The translations under genes and the position numbers were made by a program. Under the pieces are notes generated by a model. The model ran no database searches and was not told the origin of the DNA. It saw nothing but the letters and a program-made list of their open reading frames with translations. 64,000 bases of DNA from Kocuria salsicia (GTDB lineage Bacteria > Actinomycetota > Actinomycetes > Actinomycetales > Micrococcaceae): NCBI RefSeq assembly GCF_007681555.1, contig NZ_VELE01000001.1, forward strand, positions 124,001 to 188,000. Direction: 5' to 3'. Below, in pieces: positions 1,751-15,013 of this stretch. Position 1 is the first letter of the stretch; the number at the start of each line of letters is the position of its first letter.

Positions 1751-2051
1751 GCCGCCGTCCTTTCGTCGCTCACGGGAGCTGACCCCGGAGCGGGATCCCC
1801 ACCGGGCGGGGCACGCCCGGGGACCCGCGGTGTCCGCGGATGCCTCGATCCTGACGCGGTCGTGTTTCCGGCGTGTTGACGGCCTGAGTGCAGCGTGTGA
1901 CGCCCAGGGCCTGCGTGTAACGATCTGTCGACAGCGCCCCGCCCGGCGGGCGGTGTCCCGGCCCGAGGGGCGCGTCGCGGCCGCCGGGCACGACGGCGCG
2001 GGGCGGCGACGTCGCGAACGGCCAGTGCGGCGACGTCGTAGCGAGCGGCGC
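1751..2051. other. Intergenic region between NCS1 transporter and efeB
   Basis: About 300 bp with no convincing gene on either strand. It is the upstream region of the transporter (minus strand) and the downstream region of efeB. It holds a triple GCGTGT-type direct repeat (1871-1922), a 10-bp palindrome CTGTCGACAG (1925-1934), and two copies of GCGGCGACGTCG (2003-2014 and 2027-2038). No clear rho-independent terminator for efeB was found. Confidence 0.5.
1871..1922. repeat. Three direct repeats of GCGTGT(N)ACG upstream of the transporter
   Basis: Copies are GCGTGTTGACG (1871-1881), GCGTGTGACG (1893-1902) and GCGTGTAACG (1913-1922). The starts are 22 and 20 bp apart, close to two helical turns, so the copies would face one side of the DNA. 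A related TCGTGTTT lies at 1860-1867. The position upstream of the minus-strand transporter gene suggests a regulator-binding array. The regulator is unknown. Confidence 0.45.
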
Positions 2052-3356
2052 TCAGGCCTCGAAGAGCGGGCGCCCGAGGTAGTCCGCCGCGTCCTGCGAC
2101 ACCCCCGGGGGCACGGCGAAGAGCCCGGAGCCGGTGTGGCGCAGGTACTCGCTGAGCGCGTCCTGGCGGGCGAGCTTCTTCTGGATGGGCACGAAACCGG
2201 TGGCGGGGTCCTTGACCATGGCGATGAAGAACAGCCCGACGTCCATGTTGCCCACGGTGTCCGTGCCGTCCGCGTAGTTGTAGCCGCGGCGCAGCATCTG
2301 CACACCGTCGTTGGTGTCCGGGTGGGCCAGGCGCACGTGGGAGTCCTCGGGCACGATCGGCTGGTTGCCGGAGCCCATCATCCCCAGGTCCACGGGCGTG
2401 AACTCCTCGCCGCCGGACAGCGGTGCCCCGCTGCCCTTGGTGCGCCCGATGATCTTCTCCTGGCCGGTGAGCGACTCCCGGTCCCACGTCTCCAGGATCA
2501 TCCGGATCCGCCGGGCTACCAGGTAGGTGCCGCCGCGCAGCCAGGAGTCGTCGGTGACCCACACGTGGTCCTGGATCGCGGAGGCGTCCTCGGCCTTGAG
2601 GTTGGCGGTTCCGTCCTTGAAGCCGAAGAGGTTCCGGGGCGTGGCCTGCTCGGTGGAGGTCGATGAGGTGCGGCCGAAGCCCAGCTGCATCCAGCGGGTG
2701 GAGACCACTCCGAAGCCCATGCGGATCAGGTTGTGCACGGCGTGGACGGCCACCTGCGGGTCATCGGCGCACGCCTGGATGCACAGGTCTCCGCCGGTGC
2801 GCGCGTCTTCGAGCTTGTCCCCCGGGAAGTGGGGCAGCTCGACCAGCCCCTCCGGAAGCCTGGACTTAAGACCGAACCGGTCCCTGCCCGAGGAGTCCTG
2901 GAACAGGGAGCGGCCGAATCCCACCGTGACCGTGAGGTGGGCGGCCGAGAGGTCGTGGGCCTCCCCCGTGTCCTGGGGCGGGGCGTACTCGGAGCCGCCG
3001 TCGAAGCCCGTCTCGGTGACGTCCAGGCCCTGGGTGATCCGCCGGCACGCCGCCGTCCAGTCCTTGAGCAGCCCGATCAGCTCGTCACGGTCCTTGGTGA
3101 GCACGTTCAGGGACGCGAAGCACAGCCGGTCCTGCGCGGGCGTGACGATCCCGGCCTGGTGCTCGCCGTGGAAGTCCACGACGTCGTCCGGGGCGCGGTC
3201 CCCGAGCGTGTCCTGCAGTGCGGCAACCGCGGGAGGCCCCGCCACACCCAGCCCCGCGCCCACGGCGAGCGCCCCGGCGCCCGTGCCGAGCAGGGCGCGC
3301 CGGGAGAACCCGCGGCGGGTAGTGGTCGGGTGCTCGTCCCGTGGTGCCTCGTTCAT
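2052..3356 (-). CDS. efeB: EfeB, Tat-exported Dyp-type heme peroxidase of iron uptake
   Basis: Dye-decolourising (Dyp) peroxidase of the EfeUOB iron-uptake system, 434 aa. A twin-arginine signal is visible at residues 14-20 (RRGFSRR) followed by a hydrophobic Ala/Gly stretch, so it should be exported folded with heme. The Dyp signature GFKDG is at residues 245-249, with the catalytic Asp248, and SHVRLAHP is near residue 345. The ATG start is 5 bp after the efeO stop, and its GGAG sits over the efeO stop region. It is the last gene of efeU-efeO-efeB. EfeB is thought to oxidise ferrous iron or act on heme at the cell surface. Confidence 0.93.
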   Translation of the reverse strand: MNEAPRDEHPTTTRRGFSRRALLGTGAGALAVGAGLGVAGPPAVAALQDTLGDRAPDDVVDFHGEHQAGIVTPAQDRLCFASLNVLTKDRDELIGLLKDWTAACRRITQGLDVTETGFDGGSEYAPPQDTGEAHDLSAAHLTVTVGFGRSLFQDSSGRDRFGLKSRLPEGLVELPHFPGDKLEDARTGGDLCIQACADDPQVAVHAVHNLIRMGFGVVSTRWMQLGFGRTSSTSTEQATPRNLFGFKDGTANLKAEDASAIQDHVWVTDDSWLRGGTYLVARRIRMILETWDRESLTGQEKIIGRTKGSGAPLSGGEEFTPVDLGMMGSGNQPIVPEDSHVRLAHPDTNDGVQMLRRGYNYADGTDTVGNMDVGLFFIAMVKDPATGFVPIQKKLARQDALSEYLRHTGSGLFAVPPGVSQDAADYLGRPLFEA

Positions 3357-3361
3357 ACTGG

Positions 3362-4528
3362 TTACTCCACGACCTTGTCGGTCACGGTGGACAGGGGTTC
3401 GGACAGGGCGTTGACGGCGTCGGAGAGCTTCTTGACGTCGTCCTTGCTCAGCTTGTCGTAGGTCACGAAGCCGTCGCCCTCCTTGTACTGGTCGAGCAGC
3501 TTCTGGAGGTCCTTGAACCGGGTCTTCAGGGTGGAGTCCAGCTCCGTGTCCCGCTTCTTGAGCAGCGGGGAGAGGTCCTCGTACGCGATCCGGGCACCGT
3601 CCACGTTGGCCTGGAAGTCCCACAGGTCCGTGTGGGACCAGGTCTCCTCCTCGCCAGTGACCTTGCCGGTGGCGACCTCGTCGAGCAGCTCCTTGGCACC
3701 GTTGGAGAGCTGGTCCGCGGTGAAGGTCATGTCGCGGGTGCGGTCGTGGAGGGTCTGGGTGTCCGTGACGAGCTGGTCGGCCAGGGCGTCGCGATCCTTC
3801 TGTGCGAGAGCCGTGTACCCGGTGGCCGGCGGCCACAGGTCCTTCTCGATGCGGTGCCAGCCCGTCCACTTCTGGCCGTCCTCGAGGTCCGCCTCGCGAA
3901 GGTCCAGCTTGGGGTCCAGGTCACCGAAGGACTCGGCGACCGGTTCGATGCGCTCCCAGTGCATGCGCACGGGGGCGTAGAGCTCGCGGGCCTTGTCGTC
4001 GTCGCCGTTCTTGTAGGCCTGCGCGAACTCCTTGGTGCCTGAGAGCAGCTGCTCGGCCTGGTCCTTGACGTAGGACGCGTACTGGCTGGTGGCCTGGTCC
4101 TTGAGCTGGCTGTCCTGGGCATCCGCCTGGTCCCCGGCCTCACCCTTGGTCACAGTGAAGTCCCCGCGGATGCCGTCACCGACCATCCCGGGCTTGCAGG
4201 CCGTGAAGTACTTGCCCTCCGGTGCGGAGACGGTGAGGGTGCGGTTCAGGCCGGGGGCGATGTTCTCCACCTCGCCCACGATCCGCAGCCCGTCCTCCCC
4301 CAGCAGGTAGAACTCTGTGACCTTCGAGCCGTCGTTCTTGACGTCGAAGCGCAGGGTTCCCGACGACGCCTCGGTGGCCGAGACCTCGCACTTGTCGTCG
4401 GTGCTCGTCACGGAAATCGTGCCGTCGTCCTTGGCGCCGGACTGGTCGTTGGGCTGGCACGCGGAGAGGGCGAAGAGCAGCCCGGTGGCGGTCACCAGGG
4501 CGGAAAGGGTCATAGCGGTGCGGGGCAT
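3362..4528 (-). CDS. efeO: EfeO, iron-binding lipoprotein (cupredoxin plus peptidase M75 domain)
   Basis: Periplasmic-side iron-binding partner of EfeU, 388 aa. A lipoprotein signal ends in LSAC with lipid-modified Cys24. A cupredoxin-like domain covers about residues 35-125, including Cys47 and Cys111. The imelysin/M75 domain covers about 145-385 and shows the family motif around HWERIEP (residues 190-196) and GWHRIEKDLWP. The ATG at 4528 has GAGGA about 7 nt upstream. It is the middle gene of the operon, 89 bp after efeU. Having both cupredoxin and M75 domains matches the long form of EfeO. Confidence 0.93.
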   Translation of the reverse strand: MPRTAMTLSALVTATGLLFALSACQPNDQSGAKDDGTISVTSTDDKCEVSATEASSGTLRFDVKNDGSKVTEFYLLGEDGLRIVGEVENIAPGLNRTLTVSAPEGKYFTACKPGMVGDGIRGDFTVTKGEAGDQADAQDSQLKDQATSQYASYVKDQAEQLLSGTKEFAQAYKNGDDDKARELYAPVRMHWERIEPVAESFGDLDPKLDLREADLEDGQKWTGWHRIEKDLWPPATGYTALAQKDRDALADQLVTDTQTLHDRTRDMTFTADQLSNGAKELLDEVATGKVTGEEETWSHTDLWDFQANVDGARIAYEDLSPLLKKRDTELDSTLKTRFKDLQKLLDQYKEGDGFVTYDKLSKDDVKKLSDAVNALSEPLSTVTDKVVE

Positions 4529-4617
4529 GGCGGTCCTCGGTCTCGGCCGTCGACGGCAGTGGGATGGGTCTGTGAGTTCTCGCTGCGGGGGCGTGTGGCC
4601 GCGGGCGGGACTGTGGT

Positions 4618-5499
4618 TCAAGCAGTGGCCGCGGCTGCGTCGGACGCGGGGTGCGACGTCGTGCTCACTGCGGCGGTGGGCCGGGCTCGTCCGGAGCGGG
4701 ATCGGCGGATGAACAGCGGCATGACGATCAGCACGTAGAGCCACCACGCCGCGAACTCGAGCCACGTGGTGGCCGGGGAGAAGTTGAAGACGCCCTTCAG
4801 CAGCACGCCGTACCAGCTCGTGGGAGGAATCGTGGCGGAGAGGTCGAAGGCCAGGGCGCTGAGCCCTGGCAGGATCCCGGCCTCCTGCAGGTCGTGGAAG
4901 CCGTAGGCGAGCACCCCGGCGGCCACGATCACGAGGAACCCGCCGGTCCAGCGGAAGAAGGTGGACAGGTTCAGCCGCAGCAGTCCGCGGGTGATGGCCC
5001 ACGCGATGAGCACGGCCACGAGGATGCCGAGCACCGCCGCAAGCGCGGGGGCGAGCATCCCTCCGCTGCTCCCGGTGGCGCGGGTGGCGGCCCACAGGAA
5101 CAGCGCGGTCTCGAGTCCTTCGCGGCCCACGGTCAGCGCGCCCAGCACCACGATGCCCACGGTGGAACCCTGCACGGCCAGAGAGGCGCGGGACTCGAGC
5201 TCTTTCTTGAGCCCGCGGGAAGCGGAGGCCATCCAGAAGATCATCCACGTGACGAAGCCCACTGCGATGATGGACAGTGATCCGCCGATGGCCTCCTGGG
5301 CCTCGAAGGTCAGGGTGGAGGGACCGAACGTGAGCAGCGCGCCGAACCCCAGGGCCACGAGGATCGCCGCAACGACCCCCGTCCACAGGGGCTTCAGCGC
5401 CGAATGCTGCCCCACCCGCTTGAGGTATCCCATGAGGATCGCGACGATCAGCGCCGCCTCGAGACCCTCACGCAGGCCGATCAGAAAAGTTTGGAACAT
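4618..5499 (-). CDS. efeU: EfeU, FTR1-family iron permease
   Basis: Iron permease of the FTR1/EfeU family, 293 aa, in the cytoplasmic membrane. Two REGLE motifs, the iron-ligand signature of the family, are visible: REGLEA near residue 9 in the first helix and REGLET in the fourth helix. About seven hydrophobic helices are followed by a polar Ser/Arg/Ala-rich tail. The ATG at 5499 was preferred over an upstream in-frame start because the protein then begins at MFQTFLIGLREGLEA, the usual family start. An iron box lies 23 bp upstream, so the whole efeUOB operon is probably repressed by a DtxR/IdeR-type regulator when iron is plentiful. Confidence 0.94.
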   Translation of the reverse strand: MFQTFLIGLREGLEAALIVAILMGYLKRVGQHSALKPLWTGVVAAILVALGFGALLTFGPSTLTFEAQEAIGGSLSIIAVGFVTWMIFWMASASRGLKKELESRASLAVQGSTVGIVVLGALTVGREGLETALFLWAATRATGSSGGMLAPALAAVLGILVAVLIAWAITRGLLRLNLSTFFRWTGGFLVIVAAGVLAYGFHDLQEAGILPGLSALAFDLSATIPPTSWYGVLLKGVFNFSPATTWLEFAAWWLYVLIVMPLFIRRSRSGRARPTAAVSTTSHPASDAAAATA

Positions 5500-5521
5500 G
5501 TCCCCGTCTTCCGCCCATGAG

Positions 5522-5539
5522 GTTAGGCACACCTAAGAA
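5522..5539 (-). promoter_or_regulatory. DtxR/IdeR-type iron box upstream of efeU
   Basis: The sequence GTTAGGCACACCTAAGAA contains the inverted repeat TTAGG-N5-CCTAA (5523-5536 core), matching the DtxR/IdeR operator TTAGGTTAGCCTAACCTAA. It lies just upstream of the efeU start. A -10-like TATTCT (reading minus) lies immediately beside it, so repressor binding would block transcription. It resembles the second iron box at 48219-48237. Confidence 0.8.
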
Positions 5540-5604
5540 TATGATCTCAAAGTACCACGAGAACGCCGCGGTTCTGGGGCCTTCGGGGTTTGTGCGGGGA
5601 CGTG

Positions 5605-6114
5605 TCAGCCGTGTCGCAACGGGGCGGCCACCGGGGCCACAACGGCACCGGTGAGCCGAGTCAGGTCCTGTGGTGCGAGCCCCACGTCCAGACCCCGGCG
5701 ACCGCCCGAGACGTAGACCCGTTCCAGCTTCCCGGCACTCTCGTCCACCACCGTGGGCAGCCTGGTGCGCTGGCCCAGCGGGCTCACCCCGCCGAGCACG
5801 TACCCGGTCAGGCGATGCACGTCCGCCGGCTGCGCGAGCTTTGCCTTCTTGGCACCCAGTGCGGCGGCCGCGGCCTTCAGGTCCGCGCGCATCTCCACCG
5901 GCACCACGCACACCCCGAAGCCCTCGTGGTCGAGCTCCACTACGAGGGTCTTGAACACGCTGCGGGCCTCCACCCCCAGCTCCTGGGCTGCCTCCAACCC
6001 GTAGGACTCCGCGCGCGGGTCGTGCTCGTAGGCCCGCTCCTCGAACTCCACCCCCGCCGCTGTGAGCTGCAGGGTGGCCGGGGTGGCCGACACGCCGTGC
6101 TTCTTCTTCGCCAT
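5605..6114 (-). CDS. ybaK: YbaK/EbsC-family Cys-tRNA(Pro) deacylase
   Basis: A 169-aa protein of the YbaK/ProX editing family, which hydrolyses Cys-tRNA(Pro) formed by prolyl-tRNA synthetase error. Family segments are seen: FKTLVVELDHEG in the N-terminal half, and GYVLGGVSPLGQRTRLPTVVDE with the glycine-rich GGxSPxG loop. The length matches the family (about 155-170 aa). The ATG has AGGAG 6 nt upstream. It stands alone; upstream is a long non-coding gap. Confidence 0.9.
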   Translation of the reverse strand: MAKKKHGVSATPATLQLTAAGVEFEERAYEHDPRAESYGLEAAQELGVEARSVFKTLVVELDHEGFGVCVVPVEMRADLKAAAAALGAKKAKLAQPADVHRLTGYVLGGVSPLGQRTRLPTVVDESAGKLERVYVSGGRRGLDVGLAPQDLTRLTGAVVAPVAAPLRHG

Positions 6115-6458
6115 CTCGCTCTCCTCTCACACTCCACCCGGGCGGTGTCCAGCCCGCTCTGGGGCGGTACCCGGTGTGCTTGGGTACTGTGGTGACCAGC
6201 CCGCGCGGCGAGAGCTCCTCCAGCGGACCTCCCCGAGACCTGCGGGGTCACGGTCAACGAGCCTACGACCCTCCCGCCGCACGGACGAGTGCTCCCCCGG
6301 CACCGCCCCCGTCACCTCCCCGTTCTGCGCGCACCGTACGCCCCACAGCAGGCCCGCGACGATCCCCCGATCACCGCGCACCGCAGCCCCGGGCCCTTGC
6401 CGCACGCGGCGGCTGGCTGCGCGGGGGCGCCCCACCAGGACCCAGGAGGTTCGGGACG
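6115..6458. other. Non-coding gap before the thioesterase gene
   Basis: About 344 bp between the divergent ybaK and thioesterase genes. The frame of the thioesterase stays open through it, but the translation is Pro/Arg-rich and not family-like. It should hold the promoters of both genes; I could not assign -35/-10 boxes with confidence. Confidence 0.4.
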
Positions 6459-7244
6459 TTGGCCACCACACACGCCCCCGGCACCACCCCGCTGCCCGAG
6501 CCGCACCCGGCGGCCCTCGAGCGCTTCCCCGCGGCCGGCGCCGCTCCCCGGCGCCGGCTGCTCGTCTTCCCCCACGCCGGCGGCGGCGGGCTCAGCGGCA
6601 GAGCACTGCTACACCCCGGCACGGAGGTGGTCGTCCACCGCCGCCCCGGCCGCGAGTCCCGCATGGGCGACCCCACCCCCGTGAGCGTGCGCGGCGCCAT
6701 CGACGAGGCACTCGCCGCCCTGCTTCCCGTGCTTGACGCCGACGGCGTTCCCACCGCGGTCCTCGGCCACTCCTTCGGCGCGCTGCCCGCCGTGGAGTTC
6801 GCCGCCGCCCTGGACAGGCTGCGCCCGGGGCGCCTCGAGCGCGTGGTGCTCTCGGCCAAAGCCACCCCGCCAGCTCCGGACCCGCAGCTCGCGGCGATCC
6901 TGGAGGACGACGGCGCGCTGGCCGCCTGGCTGCTCGCCCTCGGCGGCACCCCCGAGGAGCTGCTCACCGATCCCGGGCTGCGCGAGATGGTCCTCGCCCC
7001 GCTGCGAGCGGACCTGCGCGCCTCCCTGTCCTACGACGGACAGCCCCCGCACCTGGCGACTCCCCTGCTGCTCGTGCACGCCCGCGAGGACGGCGGCGCC
7101 ACCGCCGAGGCCATGGCTGGGTGGGCCCGCTGCACGGGTGGAGCCGTGCGCACCCTGGAGGTCCCCGGTGGCCACCACGGCCTGTATGCGCACCCGGACC
7201 TGCTCCACGCCGCCCTGGACGAGTCCGCGGACGGCGCCCTGTGA
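6459..7244 (+). CDS. Type II thioesterase (alpha/beta hydrolase, GrsT-like)
   Basis: A 261-aa alpha/beta hydrolase of the external (type II) thioesterase family that usually clears mis-loaded carrier proteins of peptide or polyketide synthetases. The oxyanion region FPHAGGGGLS is near residue 37. The nucleophile motif is GHSFGA with Ser105, with a downstream acidic segment (HAREDG) and catalytic His in GGHHGLY. The start is TTG at 6459: a perfect AGGAGG lies 9 nt upstream (6444-6449), giving a normal family length. An upstream GTG at 6174 would add 95 unlikely residues. The stop overlaps the next start by 4 bases, so it is coupled to the phosphopantetheinyl transferase. The likely client is the synthetase at 9488-13690. 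Confidence 0.82.
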   Translation: MATTHAPGTTPLPEPHPAALERFPAAGAAPRRRLLVFPHAGGGGLSGRALLHPGTEVVVHRRPGRESRMGDPTPVSVRGAIDEALAALLPVLDADGVPTAVLGHSFGALPAVEFAAALDRLRPGRLERVVLSAKATPPAPDPQLAAILEDDGALAAWLLALGGTPEELLTDPGLREMVLAPLRADLRASLSYDGQPPHLATPLLLVHAREDGGATAEAMAGWARCTGGAVRTLEVPGGHHGLYAHPDLLHAALDESADGAL

Positions 7245-8023
7245 GCGCCCGGACCGTCACCGTGGCCCAGCCCGTCTGGGCGCAGCTGCGCCGCCGAGTG
7301 CCCGGAGCCCCTGCAGACCTGACCCTGCACGTGCTGCCGCTGTCCGAGGTCGCGGCCTGGGTCGAGTCCGCAACGGGCTGTCTCTCCCCGGAGGAGCTCG
7401 CCCGCGCCCGCGGGATCCAGGAGACCTCCGCAAGGGAGCTGTTCGTGGTCTCCCGCGTGGCCCTGCGCCACGTGCTCGGCCACCGCTTGGGCTGCGCCCC
7501 CGGGGACGCCCCCGTGACGCACGACCCGCGCACCGGCGCTCCCCGCGAGGTGCACGGCCGCGCGAGTGCCGTGGCCGGGCGGGGCGGTGACGCGGGCCCC
7601 GAACTCGGCTGGTCCCCCGCCCTCGGAGCTCTGCGCCCCGTCCACTTCTCGGTCTCCCGCACGGCGGGTCTCGTGGCGGTGGTCACCGCGCTGCGCGAGG
7701 TGGGCGTCGACGTCGAGAGGCTGCAGAGCGAGGTGGAGGCGGACGTGCTCCTGGATATCCTGCACCCCGCAGACCGCGCCCGGCTCGCGGGACTGCGCGG
7801 GCGGCGTCGTCGTGTGGCGGTGACCCGCGCATGGGTGCGCGTGGAGGCGCTCGTGAAGGGTTGGCAGACCGGCCTGGCACGGGACCCGGCGAGCATCAAC
7901 GTGGGCACCCGCTCCCGCGCCACCTACGGCCCGGACTGGACCGTGGGCGACGTGCGCACCAGCACCCGGGAGAACGCCCGGCTGGCCGTGGCATGGCGAA
8001 CGGACCCCGCCCCGCAGGGCTGA
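7241..8023 (+). CDS. Sfp-type 4'-phosphopantetheinyl transferase
   Basis: A 260-aa transferase that would attach the phosphopantetheine arm of coenzyme A to a carrier-protein serine. Visible family motifs are HFSVSRTAG (about 135-143), GVDVER with the Mg-binding acidic pair (155-160), and RAWVRVEALVKG, the W-x3-EA-x2-K-like motif with Val in place of the usual Lys before EA. GTG at 7241 overlaps the thioesterase stop (GTGA). The gene ends 37 bp before the end of the convergent acyltransferase-like gene. Genomic position suggests it activates the thiolation domain of the nearby Pls-like synthetase. Confidence 0.85.
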   Translation: MSARTVTVAQPVWAQLRRRVPGAPADLTLHVLPLSEVAAWVESATGCLSPEELARARGIQETSARELFVVSRVALRHVLGHRLGCAPGDAPVTHDPRTGAPREVHGRASAVAGRGGDAGPELGWSPALGALRPVHFSVSRTAGLVAVVTALREVGVDVERLQSEVEADVLLDILHPADRARLAGLRGRRRRVAVTRAWVRVEALVKGWQTGLARDPASINVGTRSRATYGPDWTVGDVRTSTRENARLAVAWRTDPAPQG

Positions 8024-8060
8024 GGTCCGTTCCTCGGATGCGGTGCGCGCTACCGGGTGC

Positions 8061-9491
8061 TCACCGCGCGCGGGTCTCCGCACGACGTCGCGGCGGCGCC
8101 TTCTTGACCGGCACGACCGCGGCGGCCACGCCCTTCGACACCTTCGTGACCAGCCGCTCCAGCGGTCCGTTGCCCAGCGCCTTCTGCCAGGCCACCGCGA
8201 ACAGCGCCGCGACCGCGATCTGCACGAAGTACCAGAACCACGGCGTGCCGTCCGTCCACACGAAGGACAGGAACACCAGGTGGCTCACGTACAGGGTCAG
8301 CGTCATGGAGCCCATGGCGCCGAGCCAGGTCAACCACTTGCCGATCACGCGGCTGAGCAACAGGAAGATGCCCAGCGCGATCATGGCCATGCCCGCACTC
8401 TTGAACAGCGCGAACGGGGTGTTGGTGTGCGGCCCGGAGAGCAGCAGCCACAGGTTGGTGGTGTTCGGCATCTGGGGGTCCGGGCCGAAGGCCTGGATGG
8501 TCCACACGTCCTCCCACGTCATCCACGGGGTCGCCTGGAGCAGGGCGTCCTCAAGGTCGAAGCGCCACAGCATCAGCAGGGACACCCCCCAGCCGATGGC
8601 GGCCACCACGGCACCCACGATCACGAGCAGCACCTGCACCCGGTCACGGGACAGCGGCAGCCGGCCCAGGGCCATGCCCAGGCAGATGAACGTCATCCAC
8701 GGCAGCGCCGGGTAGGTGCCGGTGAGGAACAGCTCCGCGAGCACAGCTCCCGGATCCGTGAACAGCTCCGCGTAGCTCGGGTTGCCGTAGACGTGCGCGG
8801 GCAGCACGGACAGGGACCACTGCATCACGAACGGCATGACCACCGCGAAGAACACCGAGGAGGCAAGCAGCCACCGAACGGTCATCAGCGTGAACGGGAT
8901 GGCCACCAGGAACATCAGACCGTAGTAGATCAGGATGTTGTACACCGGCAGGTCCAGCAGGTTTATGGTCATGCCGATGAGGAACAGCACGATCGCGCGG
9001 ACGAGGATCGACACGCGCGCCCGGTGGCCCTCCCTGCCCTTACGGGGGTGGCGTCCGCCGGTCATGAACGCGAGGCTCACTCCGGCCAGGGTGGCGAACA
9101 GTGCGGCGGAGTGGCCGGCGAACAGGCTCCACTGCAGGGTGGGCTCCTCGTCCACGCCGTGGGTCGCGGGCAGCACGTGGACCGCGATCATGCCGATCAG
9201 GGCGAAGCCACGGGCCACGTCCACGCCCATGATGCGGCGCTTGGTGCGCCGCCCGTCCGCACTGGTCTCGTTGCGCGTGACCGCCCCGTGACGGGGCGCG
9301 GAGGTGGAGCGCGGCGGGGCGGTGACCACCGGGGTGGCATGGGTCCACAGTCCACTCTCGGCGGCCGTGCGGCCCTCGTCCCCGCGGTCCCCCAACCACA
9401 CCTCACGCGGTGGGCGGCGCCCCGGCTGCGGGCGCTGCCCGAGCGGGAGGTCGCCTTCCACGACGTCGTCATTCACACTCTGCTGGGTCAT
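8061..9491 (-). CDS. Polytopic acyltransferase-like membrane protein (DUF1624/DUF418-like)
   Basis: A 476-aa membrane protein. After about 85 polar residues comes RIMGVDVARGFALIGMIAVH, the hallmark N-terminal helix of the heparan-alpha-glucosaminide N-acetyltransferase/DUF418 family, followed by about ten further hydrophobic helices and a basic tail (PPRRRAETRAR). The family transfers acyl groups across membranes or has unknown roles. The ATG overlaps the stop of the upstream synthetase gene (ATGA), so it is co-translated with it. It may acylate, export or protect against the synthetase product; that is inference from coupling only. Confidence 0.75.
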   Translation of the reverse strand: MTQQSVNDDVVEGDLPLGQRPQPGRRPPREVWLGDRGDEGRTAAESGLWTHATPVVTAPPRSTSAPRHGAVTRNETSADGRRTKRRIMGVDVARGFALIGMIAVHVLPATHGVDEEPTLQWSLFAGHSAALFATLAGVSLAFMTGGRHPRKGREGHRARVSILVRAIVLFLIGMTINLLDLPVYNILIYYGLMFLVAIPFTLMTVRWLLASSVFFAVVMPFVMQWSLSVLPAHVYGNPSYAELFTDPGAVLAELFLTGTYPALPWMTFICLGMALGRLPLSRDRVQVLLVIVGAVVAAIGWGVSLLMLWRFDLEDALLQATPWMTWEDVWTIQAFGPDPQMPNTTNLWLLLSGPHTNTPFALFKSAGMAMIALGIFLLLSRVIGKWLTWLGAMGSMTLTLYVSHLVFLSFVWTDGTPWFWYFVQIAVAALFAVAWQKALGNGPLERLVTKVSKGVAAAVVPVKKAPPRRRAETRAR

Positions 9492-12400
9492 TCGGTGGCT
9501 CCCTTGTGCTGGGCGGCTGACTCCCCGAGGGGGATGGTGGCCGTGTGGGCCGAGGGCACCGCGGTGGACCCTGCGGTACGGGGCGACGACGCCGTGGCGG
9601 GCATGCTGCTCGTTGTCGCACCGGGCTCCGTGGCACCGTGCGTGGTGGCACCGGAGCCCGGGGTGGCCGACGCCGCTGTGGCCGACGTGCCGGTGCCGGC
9701 GGCACCGGCGGTGGGCAGTGCCGGGGTGGGCACCACCATGGCGCTAACCACCTGGTCACCGGCCTCGAGGTGGCGGATGGGGTTGCCGCCCCAGTTGCCG
9801 TCCGAGGGCACGGTCTCCTGGCGCATCACCAGTGAGCCCGGTGCCACGGTGGTGCGCTCCTCGATCGTGGCGCCCGGCAGCACGAAGCTGTTGGGCCCCA
9901 GGGTGGAGCCGCGGCGCATGGTCACCGGCTCCATCCGCATGATGCGGTCGTGGAACAGGTGGGTCTGCAGCACGGTGCCGCGGTTCACGGACACGTTGTC
10001 CTCCAGGTGCACGAGGTCGAACTCGGGCAGCCACCAGGTCTCGCACCACACGCTGCGCCCGATCTTCGAGCCCATCAGGCGCGCCCACACGTTGAACATG
10101 GGCGAGCCCACGCTCAGCCGGATCATGGAGGGCACGGCCAGGGACTCCGCGAAGATGTCCGTGAGCTCGTTGCGCCACACGAAGGAGCTGAACAGGGGGC
10201 GCTCCGAGGCCCGGAAGCGGCCCATCAGGGCCCACTTGACCAGCACAGGCACCAGGCACGCCACGGTGCTCGCCACGGTCAGCACCACGCCGGACCACGC
10301 AAACGCAGCCACGACGCCGCTGGCGCCCATGCCGTGGGACATGTAGATCACGGTGAGCACGTACACGATGATCAGGTCCAGCCAGGCCGAGACCATGGCG
10401 GGCAGGAAGCGGAAGATCTCCACGAACGCGCGGGCCGCCTTCAGACGGCGCTGCGGCTGGAACGTGGACTCCGAGTCCGCCTCGGTTTTCGCCCGGGCAA
10501 TCGGCTCCGCGGTGCGACCCAGCCAGGAGGACCCGGCGGGGGCATGGTACGGCGCGGAGCTGAGCACGGCCACCAGCGCGTCCGCAGGGAGGTCCCGGTC
10601 CGGTCCCACGATGCCAGAGTTGCCCACGAAGGTGCGCTCACCAATCACCGAGGTGCCCACGTGCAGCCAGCCGAAGCCAGCGCGGTGCGAGGTCACCAGG
10701 GCGTGGTCCGCGAGGAATGAGCCGTCCTTGAGCGTGGTCAGGTGCGGAATGGTCTCCGCGGTGGAGATCTCCACGTTGCGCCCCACCTTGGCACCGAGCA
10801 GGCGCATGAACCACGGGGTGATGCACGAGGCGTAGATCGGGTAGGTGGAGATCAGGGTGCGCTGCATGAGCGTCTCGGTGAGCCACATGGCCCACCCCAC
10901 CTTGCTGTCCTGCGGGAAGTAGCCCGGGACGATGGTCCCGGCCAGCAGGCGCACGACCGCCACGACGAGCAGCAGCCACACCACGGCGGTGACGACCGTG
11001 AACACCGGGACCCACACGGCCACGATGGGGAACACGATCTCGTACTCCTGGATGTGGATGACCTGGGTGAGCACGATCAGCGCCCCGGGGATCAGCGCGA
11101 GCAGCGGCAGCACGCCCACGAGGACCGCGCCGAGGCTGTACATGAGGTAGGACAGTCCCTTGCCCCACGTCTTCAGCCCACCCGTGGACTCCGGGGAGCC
11201 TTCAGGCCAGGTCAGCCCGGCGGTGCCGAGGTAGCGCAGCGGGGAGCCGCCCCACAGCTCCCCGTCCGGGATGCTGTGGGTGACGTGCGAGCCGGGCAGC
11301 ACCTCGGCGCCGTCGCCCACGCGGGTTCCGGGGTCCAGCAGGGTGCGGGTGCCCACACGGGCGTCGTTGCCGACCTCGATGGCCCCCACGTGGAAGACGT
11401 CCCCGTCCAGCCAGTAGCCGGAGAGGTCGGACTCGAACTCCACCGTGGAGTTCTCGCCCACGCTCACCAGCCCGGTGACGGGAGGAGTGTTGTACAGGTG
11501 GGCGCCCTTGCCGATTCGGTTGCCGAACAGCCGGTGCAGACCGCGCGCCATGGGCGTGCCGGTGAGAACGTCGTACTTGTTGTAGACCACCAGGCGCTCG
11601 GCGGCCCACACGCGCACGTGGTTCCAGCTGCCGCGCGGGTAGTGCCCGGGCTTGAGTCCGGCGGTGAGCAGGCGCACCGTGGCCGCGCCGATGAGCACGC
11701 GCCCCGGTAGGGAGAACATCACGAGCCACCCGATGATCAGCGGCCACAGGGGCGGCTTGGGCACCCAGCCGGCGTCCGCGACCACGGCGAGGATCCAGAC
11801 CACGATGACTGAGCCGACCACGTAGCGGAAGCCATTGAGCACGTTGAGCAGCAGCAGGAACGCGCCCTGCAGCCATCCTGCGGAGGCGGGGATGGGCTCG
11901 GGGTCCCGCTTGTGGTCGTGGGACTCCCCCAGCGTGGCCAGGTAGCCGGCCATGGACTCGAGCGTGGGGTGCGAGTAGATCTTGGCGATCTCGGTGTCCG
12001 GGTGGGTCTTGCGCAGGGCGGAGACCAGGCGGGCGAGTGCCACCGAGCTGCCGCCCATGGCGAAGAAGTCGCTGTCCGCGGTGAAGGGCAGCGGGCCGAG
12101 CTGGTCTGCCCACAGTTCCGCGAGCCACGCGAGATCGCCCTGCAGCGGCGCGGAGCCGTCCTCGTTGGAGGCGGGCAGCGGCCAGGGCAGGGCCTTGCGG
12201 TCCACTTTGCCGGAGGTCTTCATGGGCAGCTCGTCCATGAGGCACAGGGCCGGGACCATCTGGCCCGGCAGCCGCTCCACGAGCCAGCGCCGCGCCTCGG
12301 AGAGGTTCACGGAACCCTCGAACTCGGGGACGAGGTAGCCGGCGATGACGCTTCCGCCACCCGGGGTGGAGTGCACAGCGCACGCGCCGAGCTTCACGCC

Positions 12401-13690
12401 GGGGACCTGGGTCATCTGGGTGTCGATCTCCCCGAGCTCGATGCGCCGCCCGGAGACCTTGACCTGGTCGTCCGCGCGCCCGGCGAAGACGATGCCCTCC
12501 TGATCGGCGCGCACCACGTCCCCGGAACGGTAGGCGCGATCCCAGCCGAGTGACTCGAGCGGTGCGTACTTCTCGGCGTCCTTCTCCGGGTCCAGGTAGC
12601 GGCCCAGGCCCACGCCGCCGATGATTAGCTCGCCGGTCTCGCCCCAGGCCACGGGCTCGCCCTCGGCGTCGACGACGGCGAGCTCCCACCCGGGCACGGC
12701 CAAGCCGATGCGGATGGGCGCTTCACCGGTGAGCAGGGCACCCGTGGCGATGACGGTGGCCTCGGTGGGTCCGTACGTGTTCCAGACCTCACGTCCGGGG
12801 CGCACGAGGTGCTTGGTCAGTTCCAGGGGGCACGCCTCCCCGCCGAAGATCAGCAGGCGCACCCGGTCCAGCGCCTCGCTGGGCCACAGGGACGCGAGCG
12901 TGGGCACCGTCGAGACGGCAGTGATCTGCTTGTCCACGATCCACTGGCCGAGGTCCGGGCCGGAGCGCACGATCTTGCGGGGCGCGGGCACCAGGGTGGC
13001 GCCGTGACGCCACGCGAGCCACATCTCCTCGCACGAGGCGTCGAAGGCCACGGAGAGCCCGGCCATCACGCGGTCACCGGGGCTCAGCGGGCGGCGCTGC
13101 AGGTACATCTGGGACTCCGCGTCCACGAGGGCGGCCGCGGAGCGGTGGCTGATGGCCACACCCTTGGGCTTGCCGGTGGAGCCGGAGGTGAAGATGATCC
13201 AGGCGTCGTCGCGGGTGCGCGGGGTCTCCGTCTGCTCGCCCGGGGTGACCGCGGGGTTGCGGGTCAGCTCGAGGCCCTGGCCGAAGACGGCGGCGACGCC
13301 GGCCTCCTCCCACACCGTGTTGGCGCGCTCGTCCGGGTCGTCCCAGTCCACGGGCACGTAGGCCGCGCCGGCGAAGAGGGTCGCGAGGATGGCCACGTAG
13401 AGGTCCACCCCGCCGGACGGGACGCGCACGCCCACGCGGTCTCCGCGGCCGACGCCGAGATCCCACAGCCGCTGCACGTGGGTCTCGATACGGTCCTCGA
13501 GCTCGCCATAGGGCACGCTCTCGTTCTCGTCCTCGAGCGCGATCGCGTCCGGGTACTGCTCCACGGTGTCCAGGACGATGTCCACCAGGGTGCGCGGTTC
13601 CGGTGGCTGCTCCACCGGGTACACGGCCCGGTCCGGGCCGATGCCCGCACCTGCGGCGTGTGCCCCGCTTGTTGATTCTTGGCTGTCCAC
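9488..13690 (-). CDS. Pls/PosA-type nonribosomal peptide synthetase (epsilon-poly-lysine synthetase-like)
   Basis: A 1400-aa membrane-bound single-module synthetase. The adenylation domain spans about 35-500, with A3 FTSGSTGKPKG (167-177), A5 NTYGPTE (304-310) and A10 SGKVDR with Lys495. The thiolation domain follows at about 515-590, with FFAMGGSS and Ser549. Then come three repeating units, each a hydrophobic helix bundle (near 625-690, 880-950, 1165-1230) followed by a left-handed beta-helix-like segment with hexapeptide-type Gly/Val spacing. An Ala/Thr/Ser-rich tail ends it. There is no condensation or thioesterase domain of ordinary type. This is the architecture of epsilon-poly-L-lysine synthetase and relatives. 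GTG at 13690 follows a GGGGGAG about 10 nt away. Confidence 0.88.
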   Translation of the reverse strand: MDSQESTSGAHAAGAGIGPDRAVYPVEQPPEPRTLVDIVLDTVEQYPDAIALEDENESVPYGELEDRIETHVQRLWDLGVGRGDRVGVRVPSGGVDLYVAILATLFAGAAYVPVDWDDPDERANTVWEEAGVAAVFGQGLELTRNPAVTPGEQTETPRTRDDAWIIFTSGSTGKPKGVAISHRSAAALVDAESQMYLQRRPLSPGDRVMAGLSVAFDASCEEMWLAWRHGATLVPAPRKIVRSGPDLGQWIVDKQITAVSTVPTLASLWPSEALDRVRLLIFGGEACPLELTKHLVRPGREVWNTYGPTEATVIATGALLTGEAPIRIGLAVPGWELAVVDAEGEPVAWGETGELIIGGVGLGRYLDPEKDAEKYAPLESLGWDRAYRSGDVVRADQEGIVFAGRADDQVKVSGRRIELGEIDTQMTQVPGVKLGACAVHSTPGGGSVIAGYLVPEFEGSVNLSEARRWLVERLPGQMVPALCLMDELPMKTSGKVDRKALPWPLPASNEDGSAPLQGDLAWLAELWADQLGPLPFTADSDFFAMGGSSVALARLVSALRKTHPDTEIAKIYSHPTLESMAGYLATLGESHDHKRDPEPIPASAGWLQGAFLLLLNVLNGFRYVVGSVIVVWILAVVADAGWVPKPPLWPLIIGWLVMFSLPGRVLIGAATVRLLTAGLKPGHYPRGSWNHVRVWAAERLVVYNKYDVLTGTPMARGLHRLFGNRIGKGAHLYNTPPVTGLVSVGENSTVEFESDLSGYWLDGDVFHVGAIEVGNDARVGTRTLLDPGTRVGDGAEVLPGSHVTHSIPDGELWGGSPLRYLGTAGLTWPEGSPESTGGLKTWGKGLSYLMYSLGAVLVGVLPLLALIPGALIVLTQVIHIQEYEIVFPIVAVWVPVFTVVTAVVWLLLVVAVVRLLAGTIVPGYFPQDSKVGWAMWLTETLMQRTLISTYPIYASCITPWFMRLLGAKVGRNVEISTAETIPHLTTLKDGSFLADHALVTSHRAGFGWLHVGTSVIGERTFVGNSGIVGPDRDLPADALVAVLSSAPYHAPAGSSWLGRTAEPIARAKTEADSESTFQPQRRLKAARAFVEIFRFLPAMVSAWLDLIIVYVLTVIYMSHGMGASGVVAAFAWSGVVLTVASTVACLVPVLVKWALMGRFRASERPLFSSFVWRNELTDIFAESLAVPSMIRLSVGSPMFNVWARLMGSKIGRSVWCETWWLPEFDLVHLEDNVSVNRGTVLQTHLFHDRIMRMEPVTMRRGSTLGPNSFVLPGATIEERTTVAPGSLVMRQETVPSDGNWGGNPIRHLEAGDQVVSAMVVPTPALPTAGAAGTGTSATAASATPGSGATTHGATEPGATTSSMPATASSPRTAGSTAVPSAHTATIPLGESAAQHKGATE

Positions 13691-14059
13691 TGCGTGTACT
13701 CTCCCCCTCGCTAAGGACCGATGGCGCAGGAGGAGACACACGCGTTTCTCCGAACGAGACACATGTGTGTTGTGGATGCTTCTTTGACGTCCCCCAGGTC
13801 CCCCGACCTCGACGACAGCGCGGCATCCTTGAACGCGCCGCGGTTTCCAGCGTTGAAAAATCCCCCTGCTGGCCCAGATGGTGGTTCAAGAATACGGTAT
13901 GTGCCCTGGCCGGGGCAATACTCAGGAGATTCGGGGCATTGTGTCAGAAAACACGCTGGATGTCTTCTCCGTCTGTGGTGTGTGACACCCATGTCGTGCC
14001 GTGCGCTCCGCTGGGTCTCCCGTCGAGCACCCAGCAGGGGTCCCGGCGGCCGCGCGGGC
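13691..14059. promoter_or_regulatory. Leader and promoter region of the Pls-like synthetase
   Basis: About 370 bp without a gene. It holds a direct repeat GAGACACA(C/T)G(C/T)G (13733-13744 and 13756-13767) and a perfect palindrome ACACATGTGT (13759-13768). A possible minus-strand promoter reads TTGCCC (13918-13913), an 18-bp spacer and TATTCT (13894-13889). The base composition is visibly less GC-rich here than in the genes. The promoter call is weak. Confidence 0.35.
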
Positions 14060-15013
14060 TCAGCCGGTCGGCGAGGCAGCCGGGTCCTCGGCCGAGAGCA
14101 GCTCGTCCAGGATCGCGGCGTCGGGCATGTCGAAGTGATTGTGCCCGGCGAGCAGCTCCAGCCGGGTCTGCTGGAATCCGCGATTCTCGTAGAAGCGCTG
14201 ACCCCGGGTGGCGGCCTCCACGGCGTCGAAGTCCGAATTGGGGTCCGTGCCGTCGTCGTCCGCGCCGGTGAACCACCACATCTTCAGGTCCTTCTTCTGC
14301 TGCTCGTCCGCCGAGCTCATCAGCGATCCGGGGGACCCGCCACCGCCGACCATTGCCGCACCGCCGGTCACGAGATCCCGGGCGCCGCTGAGCACCCCGT
14401 AGCTGAGCATCTCGGCGCCACCGGAGTAGCCGAGCCAGCTCACGCGGTCCTTCTGCACGGGCAGGTCCGTGAGCAGCCGCTGGGTGACCAGGGCCCGCAG
14501 CCACCGCAGATTGGGGCGCAGGTCCCGCCACCACGTGCAGTCGCCGGTGCAGTCGGGTGTCAGGGGGACCACCAACAGTGCGTTGTGGGACGCCGCCACC
14601 GCGGCCAGGCACGTGGTGCGTCCACCGGGCTCGGTGAACTCCGCGCCCCCGTCCCCGTGCAGGTCCACCACCAGGCCCACGGGGCGGCTCGTGTCCACCC
14701 CGCCGTCCACCACGTGGTACCTGCTCGTGGTGCCGTTGGAGGTGAAGGACTGCTGCAGCGCACCCAGCGCACCGGCCTGCGTCTGGTCCTCGTCCGTCTG
14801 CTGGGTGGGCAGGGTCACGGTGTGGGGATGGGCCCGGGAGTCGTCGTCGGAGAGACCGTAGCGGGTGCAGTCGGTGGTGGGCGCTTGCGCAGAGGTGAAC
14901 GGGTCCACGGCGACGAGCACGGCGGCGGCGATCAGGACCAGCAGGAGAACCAGTACCGCAACGATCCGCCACCGGGCTCGCTTCGTGCCCGTCCTCGAAG
15001 GACCGGTGGGCAT
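14060..15013 (-). CDS. Membrane-anchored alpha/beta hydrolase (esterase/depolymerase-like)
   Basis: A 317-aa protein. One transmembrane helix (about residues 15-40) follows a basic N-terminus, so the enzyme domain should face outward. The hydrolase core shows VDLHGDGG (oxyanion region), a GYSGG nucleophile elbow, an Asp-rich turn (FTGADDDGTD) and GHNHFDMP holding the likely catalytic His. This pattern fits esterase or polyhydroxyalkanoate-depolymerase-like hydrolases. The ATG at 15013 was chosen to place the basic stretch directly before the helix; a GTG 27 bp upstream is an alternative. Ribosome binding is weak. It lies upstream of, and in the same direction as, the synthetase, but with a 369-bp gap. 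Confidence 0.68.
   Translation of the reverse strand: MPTGPSRTGTKRARWRIVAVLVLLLVLIAAAVLVAVDPFTSAQAPTTDCTRYGLSDDDSRAHPHTVTLPTQQTDEDQTQAGALGALQQSFTSNGTTSRYHVVDGGVDTSRPVGLVVDLHGDGGAEFTEPGGRTTCLAAVAASHNALLVVPLTPDCTGDCTWWRDLRPNLRWLRALVTQRLLTDLPVQKDRVSWLGYSGGAEMLSYGVLSGARDLVTGGAAMVGGGGSPGSLMSSADEQQKKDLKMWWFTGADDDGTDPNSDFDAVEAATRGQRFYENRGFQQTRLELLAGHNHFDMPDAAILDELLSAEDPAASPTG

Follow-up and report, generated by a model that had tools for sequence, protein, structure and literature searches.

Epsilon-poly-L-lysine synthetases (Pls) yield products that serve as food preservatives and antimicrobials, and the survival of the producer in the presence of its own polycation is only partly understood. According to the accessible parts of the respective reports, the enzyme PldII of Streptomyces albulus is extracellular, translationally coupled to pls, and pivotal in self-protection (PMC9223678), while the operon of Corynebacterium variabile likewise contains a peptidase and Pls genes are known across the actinobacteria (PMC8117764). 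Gene clusters of the polylysine type (NAPAA, non-alpha poly-amino acids) have been reported, in the accessible text, from Kocuria (PMC12149201). The present analysis deals with a locus on a 64,000-nucleotide stretch of Kocuria salsicia DNA (NZ_VELE01000001.1, positions 124,001 to 188,000; hereafter the window), for which an earlier note, made from the sequence, had proposed a Pls/PosA-type synthetase with a coupled, acyltransferase-like membrane protein. The synthetase belongs to a sister clade of the canonical Pls enzymes and is coupled to a predicted membrane acyltransferase, and a peptidase partner was not found within 2.5 kb; the locus is not an ordinary Pls locus. A pairing of synthetase and acyltransferase was not found described in the literature searched, which was covered mainly by titles and abstract openings.

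The Synthetase and Its Phylogenetic Position

Both genes of the pair are on the minus strand, which the earlier note had not specified. The synthetase gene (Table 1) has the sequence GAGGGGGAG a few bases upstream of its GTG start and lies within an uninterrupted open reading frame (ORF; 9488..13762, minus strand). The TIGR02353 model of the Pls/PosA C-terminal region is matched with 580 bits against a cut-off of 423, and Pfam yields AMP-binding (205 bits) and PP-binding (43 bits) and neither a Condensation nor a Thioesterase domain; the earlier assignment to the Pls/PosA type and the description as a 1400-amino acid adenylation-thiolation protein lacking these two domains are thereby borne out. 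The attachment serine of the carrier domain is presumably S549 (at 12046). By hydropathy, the C-terminal region contains six transmembrane stretches arranged as three pairs (residues 624-642/651-669, 856-874/899-917, and 1099-1117/1133-1151); a stretch flagged at residues 94-112, within the adenylation (A) domain, was taken as a false transmembrane call. The helix-bundle/left-handed beta-helix units described earlier for this region are predicted from the family model and from a match to the hexapeptide repeats of PF00132 (38 bits against a cut-off of 27, with no individual stretch passing by itself).

The nearest named relatives, Kocuria marina, Kocuria rhizophila, and Kocuria tytonis, have synthetases of 86-89% identity, and the ratio of nonsynonymous to synonymous substitution rates (dN/dS), determined against two Kocuria relatives, is approximately 0.14. 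The window-type synthetase looks functional, because its clade retains the consensus in 127 of 131 columns that are invariant in the family; a loss of polymerising function was considered and rejected, since only the other four columns differ.

The sample for the comparison consisted of the best 80 of 592 loci together with stretches from further genomes and is not a census. Two very divergent synthetases (L142, L117), two with short or split frames (L036, L133), ORFs of less than 1150 amino acids, and identical sequences were removed before counting. In the resulting tree of 124 sequences, the window protein falls into a clade of 23 members (support 0.991), which is sister to 89 tips, namely 88 loci and 7wew. 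The A domain of the characterised Pls of S. albulus lies in the latter, canonical clade, as does the locus L105, whose A domain is 92% identical to it. In an IQ-TREE analysis of 63 of the 124 sequences, the ultrafast bootstrap values of the window clade and the canonical group were 100 and 99, respectively. Phylogeny had been named earlier as the means by which a place outside Pls/PosA would speak against the assignment; with the window clade as sister to canonical Pls, the assignment stands. A search of 201 genomes from the genus to which L039 belongs did not yield the Pls of C. variabile.

Typed copies of both kinds of synthetase occur in six genomes, in one of them within a single locus (L046) and in the others as the pairs L039/L137, L041/L145, L042/L140, L043/L138, and L044/L148. 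In the single locus, from Paeniglutamicibacter (L144:6104-15459, equivalent to L046), the two kinds are located about 1.3 kb apart in divergent orientation. The split or short frames of L036 and L133, both from Kocuria draft assemblies, are possibly natural nulls or assembly errors. The very divergent synthetase of L117 (genome G003, 2029-10916) has about 25% identity and an unreadable pocket code; thioesterase-like and phosphopantetheinyl-transferase-like genes come before it, and a further synthetase-like open frame comes after it.

The Predicted Membrane Acyltransferase Partner

The start of the partner gene overlaps the stop of the synthetase gene as ATGA, as the earlier note had observed, and the same overlap is present in L034, L035, L037, and L173. 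From its Pfam matches (Table 1), its motifs, and its fold, the encoded protein is a predicted membrane acyltransferase of the transmembrane acyltransferase (TmAT) superfamily, which gives substance to the earlier description as acyltransferase-like. It has the 10-helix acyltransferase fold of this superfamily and carries the motifs D91xxR94x10H105 (H105 at 9179) and F132xxxxG137 as well as R165 and Y401. Across 21 partner copies, D91, R94, F132, G137, R165, G272, G276, and Y401 are invariant, in agreement with the TmAT set of DxxR, FxxxxG, and the arginine, glycine, and tyrosine of transmembrane helices (TMH) 3, 6, and 9, respectively, as matched by eye to the published positions. A search of the solved structures with the partner sequence gave no match. 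Against the two Kocuria relatives, its dN/dS is 0.21-0.23.

Adjacency was counted within 2.5 kb throughout; both flanks are fully present in 19 of the 23 window-clade loci and in 84 of the 88 canonical loci. The partner adjoins the synthetase in all 23 members of the window clade and in a single canonical locus (L156), where it has 32% identity and is 2.2 kb away. Conversely, an M1 peptidase lies beside 78 of the 88 canonical copies, on the same strand every time, and within the same distance it was found at none of the 23 window-clade loci; a match at L036 disappeared under stricter settings. As L105 is among these 78 loci, PldII would be a member of the M1 family. Fisher tests on the linkage counts ignore kinship and so overstate the association; the exchange of the partner may reflect few events and may have been retained since. 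Because the pair of synthetase and partner is kept in relatives and both genes have low dN/dS values, the association is considered to be more than chance.

Substrate of the Synthetase

The ten pocket residues of the window A domain, placed by alignment to the GrsA positions, read DAESIGTVIK and differ from the lysine code DAESIGTVVK only by the replacement of valine by isoleucine at the ninth position. Every one of the 89 canonical tips, 7wew included, has the lysine code. Within the window clade it recurs in L045, and L039 and L040 have DAESIGTIIK. A poly-ornithine or poly-diaminobutyrate product was rejected, since pocket codes beginning with DFE belong to the distant outgroup.

In five loci (L042, L044, L045, L046, and L047) from Arthrobacter, Citricoccus, Nesterenkonia, and Paeniglutamicibacter, a dapA gene scoring above the TIGR00674 cut-off is located between synthetase and partner. 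Each of these five genomes has two such dapA genes, compared to one in the Zafaria genome, which lacks a linked dapA, and one in the genome of the window. The extra copy of the committed enzyme of the lysine pathway is independent support for lysine, though it comes from outside the window's own sub-clade. At the canonical locus L078, the dapA that entered the Fisher tests matches weakly, with about 26% identity. Because of the pocket code and the linkage of dapA in relatives, the substrate is probably L-lysine; the basic amino acid proposed earlier is supported by the near identity of the code.

Proposed Pathway and Alternatives

The system would be of the epsilon-poly-L-lysine type and would represent an acyltransferase-coupled clade, in which a membrane acyltransferase takes the place of the coupled degrading enzyme; we give this reading about an even chance of being correct. 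The A domain would activate L-lysine and load it onto Ser549 of the carrier domain, which would have been armed by a phosphopantetheinyl transferase. By analogy to characterised Pls enzymes, the membrane-embedded C-terminal region would link the lysines via their side-chain amines and extrude the chain. The coupled membrane protein would then take an acyl group from cytosolic acyl-CoA across the membrane and transfer it on the outside to an amine or hydroxyl. The likeliest acceptors would be alpha-amines left free on the polymer as it emerges, whereby charge would be lowered and the producer protected, with the acyltransferase filling the slot held by the M1 peptidase in canonical loci. Acylation by the partner is suggested because of its fold, its motif, its coupling, and the vacant peptidase slot. 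It is a rather doubtful extension that natural N-acylated epsilon-poly-lysines exist, capped at the alpha-amines on exit, with toxicity controlled by acylation instead of proteolysis, and that genomes with both types of synthetase make two polymers.

Several observations weigh against this reading. Concerning the substrate, there is no linked dapA within 2.5 kb in the window's own sub-clade. Concerning the enzyme, Foldseek alone aligns the partner with HGSNAT only at an E value of 2.6e-4, a TM-score of 0.45, and an rmsd of 7.9 Å; the loop of the catalytic His269 of HGSNAT is, by eye, without a conserved histidine in the partner, and the histidine that is conserved is of the AT3 type, whose enzymes mostly O-acylate sugars. 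Concerning the exchange, partner-like genes are present near 3 of 12 outgroup synthetases, and ten of the 88 canonical loci have no M1 peptidase nearby (L048, L054, L060, L079, L080, L089, L097, L137, L145, and L153), two of which (L137 and L145) come from genomes with a window-type copy as well; furthermore, the adjacency counts comprise related sequences and few independent events. Concerning the family, most copies in some Kocuria genomes lie away from synthetases (21 matches in G003), and G008 and G022, with a canonical synthetase and no window type, have members of 43-45% identity. In the partner tree of 53 sequences, the two pls-linked groups stay separate, one of them grouping with unlinked paralogues at a support of 0.485, and copies unlinked to a window-type synthetase (L114, L129) are found among the pls-linked groups.

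Because of these unlinked copies and the members in G008 and G022, the cell envelope is a conceivable acceptor. Plain epsilon-poly-L-lysine would then be made, and the partner would acylate cell wall or surface polymers and reduce binding of the polymer, a self-protection via the target that we judge to be unlikely, though worth keeping in view. It would agree with the accessible text of a report according to which surface carbohydrates are the usual targets of AT3/TmAT enzymes with an established function (PMC9558356), and with the Kocuria paralogues away from synthetases, several of which are convergent with an OmpR-type pair, as stress-response genes might be. The pls-linked copies, however, form groups of their own that track the synthetase tree, apart from a clade of 24 Kocuria paralogues (support 0.966), and in the canonical-only Kocuria genomes G001, G007, and G018 partner matches are weak or absent, although G008 and G022 have better ones. 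Improbable, in our view, is that the partner finishes or releases the product in a dedicated step other than protection, giving a different end product such as an N-acyl or lipo-oligolysine. An upstream alpha/beta-hydrolase would in this case act as acyl relay, a role that is played by the SGNH domain in OafB. The six genomes with both synthetase types make different products plausible. The hydrolase lies no more than 2.5 kb away at 11 of 23 window-clade loci compared to none of the 88 canonical loci, and pairs of hydrolase and partner that lack a synthetase occur nearby in G003, G009, G014, and G017; in 12 of the 23 loci, however, the hydrolase is beyond 2.5 kb and hence not obligate there. 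Least credible is an ordinary Pls as already described, with an unrelated neighbour that close relatives happen to retain. In the accessible part of one survey of coryneforms, including Arthrobacter and Micrococcus, every homologue with an identity of 40% or more was classed as Pls (PMC8117764), but the linkage holds in Kocuria, Corynebacterium, Arthrobacter, Zafaria, Citricoccus, Nesterenkonia, and Paeniglutamicibacter and survives the inserted dapA as well as an inverted extra copy in L047.

Neighbouring Genes and Partner Paralogues

The features of the locus are compiled in Table 1.

Table 1. Coordinates of the synthetase locus in the window.
Feature	Position	Strand	Remarks
Type II thioesterase-like alpha/beta-hydrolase	6174..7244	+	true start probably further in
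4'-Phosphopantetheinyl transferase	7121..8023	+	convergent with partner; exact start uncertain
Predicted 476-aa transmembrane acyltransferase, TmAT superfamily (partner)	8061..9491	-	HGSNAT_cat 51 bits, Acyl_transf_3 42 bits
ATGA stop/start overlap	9488..9491	-	putative translational coupling
Pls-type synthetase	9488..13690	-	GTG start at 13690, 1400 aa, TGA stop at 9488, TIGR02353
C-terminal tail rich in Ala/Thr/Ser, residues 1306-1400	9491..9775	-	past family model
TIGR02353 polymerisation region, residues 613-1305	9776..11854	-	three transmembrane pairs
Thiolation (carrier) domain, residues 522-584	11939..12127	-	Pfam PP-binding
Adenylation domain, residues 1-507	12170..13690	-	pocket code DAESIGTVIK, first residue D217 at 13042
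Membrane-anchored alpha/beta-hydrolase ('lip')	14060..15013	-	Ser197 in GYSGG, D253/D254, H293 conserved

The triad residues of the upstream hydrolase vary little or not at all among 11 copies. Pfam gave no match above cut-off for the 11 aligned sequences, and by fold the protein resembles many esterases and some S9 peptidases. Among 27 genomes of the genus (the window's own and 26 others), 16 encode a synthetase that shares 64% identity or more with that of the window, and synthetase fragments without a type are present in G002; the hydrolase is detected at E <1e-39 in these 17 genomes and in G020 (76% complete), and the remaining nine of the 27 are without any match. In G012 it is not beside the synthetase but elsewhere on the contig. 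Hydrolase and partner are adjacent without a synthetase at L114:3870-6382 (G003) and at like places in G009, G014, and G017, about 11-18 kb from the synthetase operon.

The phosphopantetheinyl transferase of the window may arm the carrier domain, and the type II thioesterase may serve another nonribosomal peptide synthetase (NRPS). Within 2.5 kb of window-clade synthetases the two genes occur in 6 and 5 of 23 loci, respectively, all from Kocuria. A 4874-amino acid NRPS frame with five condensation domains is located about 15 kb past the right end of the window (G000:C11:203019-214478), and both genes may serve this enzyme. That they are surely dedicated to the synthetase was rejected in view of this multi-module NRPS on the same contig and the low linkage.

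Matches to the partner family are numerous in some genomes of the genus (21 in G003, 20 in G017, 11 each in G009 and G014, and 10 in G019). One of the 24 copies of the paralogue clade, L038_20946, lies about 7 kb from a synthetase. At three loci of G003 (L175, L176, and L179), family copies face, in convergent orientation, genes for a sensor kinase and a response regulator of the OmpR type, identified by Pfam or clustering, an arrangement that looks like a sense-and-respond one; at L187 (G017), a regulator-family gene alone was called beside an expanded-family copy. Copies beside resolvases were seen in L175 and L182.

Comparison with Known Systems

Summarizing, the earlier interpretation stands as to a Pls-type synthetase with a basic substrate and an acyltransferase-like partner, and is refined to probable L-lysine and to a sister clade instead of an ordinary Pls locus. 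A clade in which a predicted transmembrane acyltransferase stands in for the coupled degrading enzyme offers a direct, testable contrast on self-protection and suggests that some producers tame their own polymer by chemical capping. If true, a peptide-like amine acceptor would be added to the mostly sugar acceptors of the TmAT superfamily, and modified polylysines would become accessible by genetic means. Genome surveys in which any match of more than 40% identity is taken for a Pls may be mixing two kinds of loci.

With the Pls/PldII systems of S. albulus and C. variabile, the window locus shares the order of adenylation and thiolation domains, six transmembrane segments, the TIGR02353 region, a coupled neighbour gene, and, save for one position, the lysine pocket code. 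It differs in its place in a sister clade, with an A domain 59% identical to that of the solved epsilon-poly-L-lysine synthetase of S. albulus and a C-terminal region 45% identical to that of the S. albulus-like L105, in the coupled TmAT acyltransferase with no M1 peptidase found within 2.5 kb, and in the dedicated dapA of some genera. PosA, the delta-poly-L-ornithine synthetase of Acinetobacter baumannii, has the same domain layout and family; it is described, in the accessible text, as 36% identical to Pls in the A core and as activating L-ornithine (PMC10522769), whereas the synthetase of the window has a lysine-type code. On the part of the acyltransferase, the 10-helix fold, DxxR, FxxxxG, the arginine of TMH3, and the tyrosine of TMH9 are common to the partner, HGSNAT, and AT3 enzymes such as OafB. 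The partner is without the fused luminal domain of HGSNAT or an SGNH domain, has the AT3-type histidine where HGSNAT has an asparagine, and, unlike HGSNAT and the AT3 enzymes, is encoded by a gene coupled to a poly-amino-acid synthetase.
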